NCBI RefSeq assembly: GCF_001263415.1
Contig: NZ_LGTE01000003.1
Location: forward strand, 62,001-126,000
Reading direction: 5' to 3'
DNA length: 64,000 nt
Origin: Thermincola ferriacetica
GTDB lineage: Bacteria; Bacillota; Thermincolia; Thermincolales; Thermincolaceae
The notes under the pieces: generated by a model
What the model was told of the DNA's origin: nothing
Seen by the model: the letters and a program-made list of their open reading frames with translations, nothing else
Databases searched by the model: none
Shown: positions 54,864 through 60,194 of the stretch, piece by piece
How the letters are laid out: the number at the start of each line of letters is the position of its first letter
Numbering within the stretch: the stretch's first letter is position 1
Made by a program: the position numbers and the translations under genes

Positions 54864-56042
54864 TTAATTGGCTCTCTTTTGTATCTTCCCGTGACACCTG
54901 CCACAGCTTTCCTGGCTGTGGCAGGTGTAGCATGATTCATCAACCTTCCCATTGGGCGGTAGTTCAAAGGGATGGTAAAATTTCTTGGACCGGTGTATGC
55001 TGGGATGACATTCATTGCAGGAAATATTAGCTACCGTATTGGGACCGCCCTGACCTTTGGGCCCCTGGGGCCCCTGGTTGTCATGGCATGTGTAGCACCT
55101 CTGTTTGTCTTTTTGGGCCATCTGCCCGTGTTTTTCAATAAACATAGCTTCATTGTGGCTGGGTGGCCTTTTCTGGTGACAGGCCTTGCACCAGGTATTT
55201 TCCCTGGAATAAGTAATCACGCTTAGGCTGTTGTTTTGGTTTTTATCACCACCTAAATACTGAAGATATTTTTCAGGCTCTTTTAATGTTTCGATTTTTT
55301 TCTCACTCATATAACTATGGCAGGAATCACAGTACCCCAGGTCCCCTGCTGCTATCTTGCCATGACCGCCATTTCTGAAATTCCCCTTTAAGTGGTCTGC
55401 CGGTTTCATACCGTTTTTGTGGCAGGCGTCACATGCTACGGTAACCTTCCGCAACTGATGGCAGCGCATGCATAAATCCATATCAGGCCGGACATATTCG
55501 GCATTATTTTTCATCAATGATTGGCCCAGTGTGGCATTCCACCTCTGGTAATCTCCTTCATAGGTAATTTTTCGCTTAGCAATGTTGCCATGGGTTATGC
55601 CCTGGTGGCATTTAGAGCAATTGACCTTTTGCTTTTTGTGTTTTCCATGTGGGATGATCAAGTCTTCTGAAGTTGTAACTATCCGGTTTTCCATATTGTG
55701 ACAGCGTTCACAGGCCGCATCAGACATTGGGCCGAGTTTGATAATCGGCGCCACATAAGATTTGGTTGCCATTTTGAAGAAATGCTTGACCCCAGTAATG
55801 TTAGCTTTAATAAATGGCCCGGGGCCAGGGGGAATATGACAGGATATGCAGTTTACTTTCGCATGCGACGACGCCAGCCAGGTATAATACTCCGGTTTCA
55901 TCATGTGGCAGGCGCCGCACATTTTCGAAGGTATGTTGGCCGTCCAGGCCCGAGACGCTATGGCTGCTGCCGTACCAAGTAAAAAAAGAAGGACTAGCAA
56001 GACCTTAATAAGCTTATGAAAGGTTTTTATGTTAAAGCCCAT
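54864..56042 (-). CDS. Dodecaheme NapC/NirT-like membrane cytochrome
   Basis: 392 residues. An N-terminal TM helix (about 12-32) is followed by a NapC/NrfH-type tetraheme region: CGACHMMKPEYYTW, NCISCHIPPGPGP, CERCHNM and CSKCHQGITHG. Eight more CxxCH follow (CMRCH, CDACH, CDSCH, CKACH, CYTCH, CNECH, CYTCH, CGRCH), 12 in all from residue 42 to 384. The NapC family oxidises membrane quinol. Here the quinol-oxidising head appears fused to an eight-heme extension, giving one protein that could pass electrons from the quinone pool outward. It is the first gene of the operon leading to TPR, NHL and hexaheme genes. Two 27-bp repeats lie in its promoter region. Confidence 0.92.
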   Translation of the reverse strand: MGFNIKTFHKLIKVLLVLLFLLGTAAAIASRAWTANIPSKMCGACHMMKPEYYTWLASSHAKVNCISCHIPPGPGPFIKANITGVKHFFKMATKSYVAPIIKLGPMSDAACERCHNMENRIVTTSEDLIIPHGKHKKQKVNCSKCHQGITHGNIAKRKITYEGDYQRWNATLGQSLMKNNAEYVRPDMDLCMRCHQLRKVTVACDACHKNGMKPADHLKGNFRNGGHGKIAAGDLGYCDSCHSYMSEKKIETLKEPEKYLQYLGGDKNQNNSLSVITYSRENTWCKACHQKRPPSHNEAMFIEKHGQMAQKDKQRCYTCHDNQGPQGPKGQGGPNTVANISCNECHPSIHRSKKFYHPFELPPNGKVDESCYTCHSQESCGRCHGKIQKRAN

Positions 56043-56335: not shown

Positions 56336-56367
56336 TAAAAAAAACGTCCCTCAAAACAGAGGGACGT
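56336..56367 (-). terminator. Terminator of the LytTR regulator gene
   Basis: ACGTCCCTC / GAGGGACGT hairpin followed on the minus strand by TTTTTTTT, overlapping the stop. It isolates the regulator gene from the cytochrome operon. Confidence 0.85.
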
Positions 56368-57116
56368 CAATCAATAAGATATTTTTCTTGAAACTCTTTC
56401 GCCTTATCAAGGGTCATCAAAACCGTTTCCTTTGTGCCCTTCAACCTGACCAGATAAGTCTTATGTCCCCAGGGCGATAGCTCCGTAACCTTATCGGCAT
56501 TTATAATGTACCCCTTATGACACCGGAAAAAATTTTCCGTCTTTAGGCGGCGGTGGAGTTTTTCCAAAGATTCATTAGTCTTAAAAACTCCTGTAGAAGT
56601 ATGGATTGCTGTCTTCCGGTCTTCCCTGGTAATAAAAATAATATCCTGGATGTCAATTATATTGCAACTATCCTGGGTCTGTATTTTTAACTTCATGTTT
56701 TTGTTACCCATCTGGGATGCCATGCGTTCGATTATTTTAAGGCGTTCTATTTCATCTTTCCAGGCCTTGACCCGGGCTATTGTCTGGTGAATACGTTCCA
56801 CCTCGAAGGGTTTCATTATGTAATCACAGGCATAAACCTCAAATGCTTCAAGAGTATAACTGTCGTAACCCGTGGCAAAAACTATAAAGATGTTGGGGTT
56901 TACACTGAAAATTTCCCTGGCCGCCTGCGCCCCGTTCATTTCCGGCATATCCACATCAACAAATACAATATCAGGTTGCATGTCCTTGACCATTTCCACC
57001 AGTTGGCGCCCATTTTCTGCTTCTCCTATTACCGTGACCCCGGAAATACTGTTTAAAATCTTTTTCAAAACATTCCTTATATCCGGACCATCATCGGCAA
57101 TGACAACTTTTAGCAT
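56367..57116 (-). CDS. LytTR-family response regulator
   Basis: 249 residues from the ATG at 57116 (GGAAGGTGAGAGT upstream; an upstream in-frame ATG lacks a site). Receiver domain with VVIADDGPDIRNVL, phospho-acceptor Asp in DIVFVDVDMPEMNG (about 54) and the switch lysine in CDYIMKPFEVERI. A coiled linker is followed by a LytTR DNA-binding domain (IIFITREDRKTAIHT ... FFRCHKGYIINADKV). No cognate kinase is adjacent. Its mRNA begins with a GEMM-I riboswitch and terminator, so expression should respond to a cyclic dinucleotide. The neighbouring cytochrome operon is its most obvious target. Confidence 0.92.
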   Translation of the reverse strand: MLKVVIADDGPDIRNVLKKILNSISGVTVIGEAENGRQLVEMVKDMQPDIVFVDVDMPEMNGAQAAREIFSVNPNIFIVFATGYDSYTLEAFEVYACDYIMKPFEVERIHQTIARVKAWKDEIERLKIIERMASQMGNKNMKLKIQTQDSCNIIDIQDIIFITREDRKTAIHTSTGVFKTNESLEKLHRRLKTENFFRCHKGYIINADKVTELSPWGHKTYLVRLKGTKETVLMTLDKAKEFQEKYLID

Positions 57117-57217
57117 ACTCTCACCTTCCCGGAAGAAGCCCATGAAGGAAACAACCCTTTGTAACTGAATGTTTTGCATGCATCCACAAACAATAATCCA
57201 AATATTTTATAATAGAA

Positions 57218-57310
57218 ACAAAAGTTTTTATCGAAACCTCATGGAAACTTTTGTTGATATCCGGAAATCATGCTTTGAAGTTATCCATAATTTTACCTCA
57301 AAGCATAACT
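57218..57310. repeat. Dispersed two-hairpin repeat, copy B
   Basis: ACAAAAGTTT...AAACTTTTGT hairpin, linker TGATATCCGGAAATC, then ATGCTTTGA...TCAAAGCAT hairpin. It lies between the riboswitch terminator and the LytTR start. Inverted relative to copy A at 34.7 kb and same orientation as copy C. Confidence 0.75.
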
Positions 57311-57322
57311 CTCTAAAATATT

Positions 57323-57353
57323 AAAAAAATCTTTGTCGGAACTGCCAACAAAG
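57323..57353 (-). terminator. Riboswitch-controlled terminator
   Basis: CTTTGTTGG-CAGTT-CCGACAAAG hairpin followed by ATTTTTTT on the minus strand, 16 nt after the GEMM aptamer. The expected expression platform. Confidence 0.75.
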
Positions 57354-57368
57354 AATGCTTAACCTACA

Positions 57369-57482
57369 AATATTTGGCAGCCCGGCGGTCATAGAGCATT
57401 GGACACAGATTACTGCCCGCTATTCTTCAGACCCGTAGCTTTGCGTCCTTGCCTTTCGACAAGTTTGCTTTTCACAAATATT
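57369..57482 (-). promoter_or_regulatory. GEMM-I (c-di-GMP-I / cGAMP) riboswitch aptamer
   Basis: Minus strand: P1 arms AATATTTG / CAAATATT close the element. Inside are GCAAAC, a P2 stem CTTGTC-GAAA-GGCAAG with the GAAA tetraloop, GGACGCAAAGCTACGGGTCT, a variable P3, and GCCGGGCTGCC. All conserved GEMM-I blocks are present in order. By hand alignment with Vc2, the base matching G20 is A (AAAAGCAAAC). I recall A20 as typical of the cGAMP-responsive or promiscuous subclass found before Geobacter exoelectrogenesis genes. Controls the LytTR regulator. Confidence 0.88.
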
Positions 57483-57556
57483 CCCTTACTTTTATCGGAT
57501 TTATCAACTTATTCCATTTATTCTATATCCTAAGCTTATTTCCTGCAAAAGCTAGG

Positions 57557-57649
57557 ACAAAAGTTTCTATCGAAACCGCATGGAAACCCGTTGATATCCG
57601 GAAATCATGCTTTGAGAATATTCAACAATTCTACCTCAAAGCATAATTC
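57557..57649. repeat. Dispersed two-hairpin repeat, copy C
   Basis: Same layout as copy B, about 85 percent alike by eye, including GTTGATATCCGGAAATCATG. The right arm of the first hairpin is degraded (CCCG for CTTTT). Lies downstream of metY. Confidence 0.7.
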
Positions 57650-57652
57650 CCT

Positions 57653-57696
57653 AAATATGAAAAATAGCCCATTATTTTTGTTAATAATGGGCTATT
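57653..57696 (-). terminator. Terminator of metY
   Basis: AATAGCCCATTATT / AATAATGGGCTATT hairpin with a T-rich minus-strand tail. Confidence 0.85.
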
Positions 57697-60082: not shown

Positions 60083-60194
60083 CTCTCATCTCTCAGGAAT
60101 GATCCTGCAGGAATTGGCACATTTCCAAAGCTTTTACAGCTTTGGCTGTTGCCGGGTTTCATTGGGCCAGTCCCTCCACCTCTCTGGATAAGAG
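60083..60194 (-). promoter_or_regulatory. SAM-I (S-box) riboswitch
   Basis: Minus strand: CTTATCCAGAGAGGTGGAGG start, GGGACTGGCCCAATGAAACC, CCGGCAAC, the P3 CCAAAGCTGTAAAAGCTTTGG hairpin, GTGCCAATTCCTGC and closing GATGAGAG. All canonical S-box blocks are present in order. Controls metA and metY by SAM-dependent termination. Confidence 0.95.

Follow-up and report, generated by a model that had tools for sequence, protein, structure and literature searches.

In the genome of Thermincola ferriacetica, a well-supported riboswitch of the GEMM-I class, with adenine at position 20 (A20), precedes the gene for an orphan AgrA-like regulator. It was located in a stretch of 64,000 nucleotides of contig NZ_LGTE01000003.1 (the window, to which all coordinates without a prefix refer). 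We infer that this RNA acts as a transcriptional OFF switch on the LytTR regulator gene and that its natural ligand is most likely c-di-GMP produced by canonical GGDEF proteins, a reading to which a probability of roughly 55% is assigned. The adenine at position 20 would then tune the affinity of the aptamer or permit some response to cGAMP.

A cmscan of the whole window yielded two matches only, a SAM riboswitch and the GEMM-I aptamer. For the latter, RF03167 (c-di-GMP-I-GGC) is the best cmscan family by E-value, matching above its gathering score at 57478-57372 (-) with 63 bits and E 1.7e-12 (Rfam cmscan). RF01051 (c-di-GMP-I/GEMM-I) scores 73 bits at the same place (E 2.5e-14; curated cut-off 35), and a covariance model of our own, trained on nine further GEMM-I RNAs without A20, of which eight belong to this genome and one to a relative, finds the aptamer at 75.5 bits (E 3.4e-15). 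According to these covariance-model matches, the aptamer spans 57372-57479 (-). The 5' strand of P1 (57475-57482, -), read from the sequence, forms 8 bp with 57376-57369, and P1 is also present in the minimum free energy (MFE) fold. All GEMM-I blocks and a downstream terminator had been described in a sequence-only reading of this DNA, and both are indeed present (aptamer 57479-57372, terminator 57354-57330, -). The strand was left unstated there; riboswitch, terminator, and LytTR gene all lie on the minus strand.

Position 20 of the aptamer is occupied by A57469 (-), which stands opposite the invariant first G of AGGCAAAC in the alignments to RF03167 and to our own model, with the posterior probability at the top mark in both displayed alignments. 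This G is position 20 in Vc2 numbering, followed by G21, C22, A23, A24, A25, and C26, with G14 at 57475. An adenine in place of G20 had been proposed from a hand alignment, and the covariance check upholds it, since two independent models both give A57469 and not G20; a misalignment of position 20 in that reading is ruled out by their agreement. Both alignments also contain the ligand-contact bases of GEMM-I, namely A47 (57442, -), an A in the GEMM-I consensus and a G in the RF03167 model, and C92 (57377, -), which pairs with a guanine of the ligand, a role taken from the equivalent C75 (PMC9262584). The RF03167 consensus shows G at positions 20 and 47, whereas the window RNA has A at both, and the G at position 47 that characterizes members of RF03167 is thus absent (A57442).

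The sign of control is predicted from two competing folds, both of them computed. The intrinsic terminator (57330-57354, -) consists of a 10-bp stem and T7, its letters being TCTTTGTTGG-CAGTT-CCGACAAAGA-TTTTTTT from 57354 to 57330. A putative antiterminator strand, GGGCUGCCAA at 57374-57383 (-), contains C92 and can pair with 57348-57339, as judged from computed folds and complementarity. In the full leader, the MFE structure comprises aptamer and terminator (-47.5 kcal/mol), and forcing the antiterminator gives -46.8; in a transcript ending inside the terminator, the antiterminator is itself the MFE structure (-40.2). If the full leader is taken a little further at the 5' side and less far at the 3' side, its MFE structure, too, contains the antiterminator (-46.2). 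The two states are therefore balanced, and the energy gap between them lies below the prediction error. Of 1000 letter shuffles, 6 reached the complementarity between aptamer and terminator, as did 15 of 1000 dinucleotide shuffles. Two further GEMM-I leaders of the genome show comparable pairing potential between aptamer and terminator (L011, 3/1000; L007, 26/1000), and the test is weak or unsupportive for L001 (744/1000) and for the second A20 copy of the genome, L012 (123/1000).

In the absence of ligand, the C92-bearing 3' strand of P3 (57383-57374) would pair with the 5' arm and loop of the terminator (57348-57339), and the gene would be read. Binding of a cyclic dinucleotide would stabilize the aptamer and keep the C92 strand occupied, whereupon the terminator would form and transcription would stop. 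Because the antiterminator uses the strand that binds the ligand through C92, the ligand should favor termination, and transcriptional OFF is the likelier sign of control under this model. Within this aptamer class, Cd1 is a known OFF switch (PMC9262584). This RNA from Clostridioides difficile (RF01051), in which antiterminator formation costs the aptamer its binding pocket, has in common with the window RNA the three-helix aptamer, the GAAA tetraloop on P2, C92, A47, and a transcriptional terminator. The window RNA differs from RF01051 and Cd1 by A20 where Vc2 has G, by its long P3, and by preceding a LytTR regulator gene instead of flagellar genes. An ON switch, with the ligand preventing termination, would correspond to the cGAMP RNAs of Geobacter, whose A20 switches turn genes on (PMC6456294); it appears quite unlikely here, since P1 (to 57369) and the terminator (from 57354) do not overlap and both form in the MFE fold, and since the strand competing with the terminator is the very one engaged by the ligand. 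Regarding the start of the transcript, weak promoter-like hexamers (TTTGCA-18-TAGAAT; 57520-57549, -; 9/12 matches) lie upstream of the aptamer; they are not significant, because eight such sites were found against 5.6 expected. A promoter inside a repeat downstream of the terminator may drive the LytTR gene, which would count against the proposed OFF switch.

Of the two dinucleotides considered, c-di-GMP is the likelier ligand for the A20 aptamer. In Geobacter RNAs, A20 gives a strong preference for cGAMP, and the exchange A20G reverses the preference in Gmet_0970 (PMC6456294). Other work regards the base at position 20 as a selectivity factor rather than a strict filter (PMC9262584), and a natural A20 aptamer of Desulfobacca shows increased affinity for cGAMP and perhaps slightly reduced affinity for c-di-GMP (PMC9481103). 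In view of this selectivity role and of the Desulfobacca affinities, A20 alone leaves both ligands open. Several observations speak for c-di-GMP: ten or more GGDEF domains of this genome are canonical and intact, with Asp where the base is contacted; neither a Ser/Thr Hypr GGDEF nor a SMODS cyclase was found in it; most of its other GEMM-I RNAs have G20; and its paralogous agr-like LytTR operon, like one in a relative, carries a G20 GEMM-I RNA. That the aptamer is instead a genuine cGAMP riboswitch (GEMM-Ib) whose ligand comes from an unrecognized cGAMP enzyme, for example the GGDEF protein with Asn at its specificity site (C6:80256-80726), is unlikely, although two covariance alignments place an A at the discriminating position and the Desulfobacca case demonstrates a gain of cGAMP affinity through this base. 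With the GEMM-Ib RNAs of Geobacter (Gmet_0970, pilM), the window RNA shares A20, A47, C92, and nearby cytochrome genes. Those RNAs, however, turn genes on, lie immediately ahead of cytochrome or pilus genes, and come from genomes that encode Hypr GGDEF proteins, whereas the window RNA is predicted to be OFF and precedes a regulator gene, and no Hypr GGDEF was found in its genome. The Desulfobacca acetoxidans aptamer is, as here, a natural A20 copy beside G20 paralogs in one genome, but it is arranged in tandem with an AdoCbl riboswitch, unlike the window RNA (PMC9481103).

The Hypr signature is a Ser (or Thr) in place of the canonical GGDEF Asp (PMC6456294). Thirteen GGDEF loci of the genome show Asp at the specificity site, including one frame-disrupted and one truncated copy, two further divergent copies show GD there, and one (C6:80256-80726) combines Asn with GGEEF; a single weak sub-cut-off match without a readable specificity site stands outside this residue count. 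The Ser/Thr signature was found in none of the readable GGDEF domains of the genome, and SMODS cyclases (DncV type) gave no match in it, i.e. neither of the known kinds of cGAMP synthase (Hypr Ser/Thr GGDEF or SMODS of the DncV type) was detected.

The protein with the Asn residue (L232 3627-4766) is a membrane protein whose gene adjoins another GGDEF gene and pilus-type genes. Its best PDB match is 6d9m (137 bits vs 114 for the next), an entry described as a GAF-containing diguanylate cyclase fused to lysozyme; we regard it as the Hypr GGDEF studied in PMC6456294. Like that enzyme, the Asn protein shows Tyr at the apparent cross-dimer position, but Tyr, Phe, or His occupies the same site in several other GGDEF proteins of the genome. 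In the tree, nine of the ten sequences with the Hypr motif cluster together (88/88) and leave the Asn protein outside. Its best matches among the GGDEF domains compared are canonical paralogs of its own genome, and it carries GGEEF, a motif that abolishes activity when the specificity site is Ser. Hypr membership, as suggested by the top PDB match, is rejected in view of these closest paralogs and of its exclusion from the Hypr group. The protein is the only candidate in the genome for an unusual product and, judged from its sequence, could make another dinucleotide. In a far-reaching scenario, a lineage of Bacillota would employ GEMM-I RNAs to switch off agr-type LytTR regulators; one of these RNAs would sense cGAMP through A20, and this non-Hypr GGDEF, with Asn instead of Asp/Ser at the base-recognition site, would supply the cGAMP. 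The scenario is very unlikely and, if true, would mean cGAMP signaling outside the Hypr clade.

A20 is common in Bacillota. Among the 15 GEMM-I matches of the T. ferriacetica genome, two have A20, two low-scoring copies have U, and the others have G; the second A20 copy (C2:264396) lies ahead of a chemoreceptor-like gene that encodes 4HB_MCP and HAMP domains and is cut off by the contig end. In a scan of named genomes, the A20 core was present in at least 116 stretches, mostly from Clostridia and Bacilli and, among the matches listed, also from some Omnitrophota, Pseudoalteromonas, and Desulfobacterota. A sample of 249 Bacillota genomes contained A20 in 18 (23 sites) and G20 in 138. The Hypr DNA pattern, present in 28/98 genomes of a control phylum (nearly all with Ser), was found in 4 of these 249 genomes, one of the four matches reading as a Thr-bearing GGDEF; the Ser form occurred in none of the 249, the 18 with A20 included. 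The pattern was also absent from 16 A20-bearing genomes. Both counts argue against cGAMP as the ligand. Within the control phylum, the A20 pattern itself occurs in 1/98 genomes only, and the lack of A20-Hypr co-occurrence in Bacillota therefore carries less weight than it seems to at first sight. At G150:C3:4237764-4237801, a Bacillota sequence reads NDKYGHPTGTAYL, a motif resembling GGDEF in which Thr occupies the Hypr position. Work on Geobacter has connected A20 with cGAMP sensing; since the survey reveals many A20 GEMM-I RNAs in Bacillota, with sampled genomes devoid of the Hypr Ser motif, position 20 alone is unfit to predict cGAMP signaling in this phylum. Judged by a crude motif, most first open reading frames (ORFs) at 122 public A20 sites seem to encode secreted or membrane proteins, and a profile search downstream of public A20 sites returned one LytTR match and no AgrB.

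The gene directly downstream of the riboswitch encodes a REC-LytTR response regulator (PF00072 and PF04397), in agreement with the earlier assignment of a LytTR regulator. This AgrA-like gene spans 56367-57116 (-), with the start set by homology with relatives; a longer reading frame opens at 57179. Its closest relatives in four other genomes show 60, 55, 44, and 41% identity, and all four related loci harbor AgrB and a GHKL kinase beside the LytTR gene, the partners having been identified by a Pfam run for two loci and read by sequence for the other two. The window gene has the REC-LytTR architecture of the AgrA type in common with these relatives but differs by having neither an AgrB nor a GHKL kinase gene in its operon; its neighbors are a Cys/Met-metabolism enzyme and cytochromes.

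GEMM-I RNAs with G20 are found before agr-like operons, at C6:119605 of this genome ahead of genes for a membrane protein, a kinase, AgrB, and LytTR, and ahead of the same arrangement in a distant relative (G055). GEMM-I control of LytTR modules thus recurs (three of about 21 loci tested); the association is not general, because no GEMM-I was found in the stretch scanned at about 18 other LytTR loci. This arrangement suggests a direct, testable RNA link from the intracellular dinucleotide level to regulators of peptide-type signaling. In two distant Bacillota, G20 GEMM-I RNAs (L210 1106-1192 and L209 7476-7559) lie directly upstream of agr-like operons with genes for a membrane protein, a GHKL kinase, AgrB, and LytTR.

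The sequence-only reading had further proposed a circuit leading from a cyclic dinucleotide via the LytTR regulator to the cytochromes. Its first part, an A20 riboswitch before a LytTR gene, stands; the cytochrome arm is not supported, adjacency being all that connects it. The LytTR gene ends in its own terminator (56343-56368, -), located before the cytochrome genes, with a cytochrome gene starting at 56042. No large ORF at the four related LytTR loci contains CXXCH, so that LytTR-cytochrome synteny was seen in none of these relatives, and no ORF with at least three CXXCH motifs, i.e. no multihaem gene, occurs within 6 kb downstream of the 122 public A20 sites. The position before exoelectrogenesis genes that is typical of GEMM-Ib is not seen in either A20 copy of the genome, the first gene being LytTR with its own terminator in one case and the chemoreceptor-like gene in the other. 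The only direct repeats before the cytochrome gene are one 8-nt pair, TGCACAAT, 24 nt apart, which is not enough to call a putative LytTR site.

The riboswitch is flanked by two copies of a dispersed two-hairpin repeat of about 108 bp, identified by sequence matches, one between terminator and gene (57215-57325, -) and one upstream of the riboswitch (57557-57662, -). Together with the nearest LytTR relatives, which have no GEMM-I nearby, and with degenerate GEMM-I copies elsewhere in the genome (L013, L015), this setting would fit a GEMM-I copy in decay or of weak specificity, with little function, amid repeat insertions. Such decay is decidedly improbable for an aptamer of 75.5 bits with binding-site bases intact except position 20, an 8-bp P1, and a strong terminator. 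The repeat has 22 matches in this genome, several in the related G003, and single ones in other members of the order (86-88% identity), and no match in Rfam. One stem pair is altered on both sides between genomes, from G-C to A-U. By eye, 17 of 18 own-genome copies are oriented like the next gene, and the repeat often follows the T-run of a terminator. At L015 (C27:9445-9548), a weak GEMM-I match of 34.9 bits, just below the cut-off, is followed by a terminator and a repeat copy (C27:9293-9401) before an NhaA-like gene. The SAM riboswitch of the window (RF00162, 92 bits; 60083-60194, -) is an ordinary one and precedes sulfur-metabolism genes.
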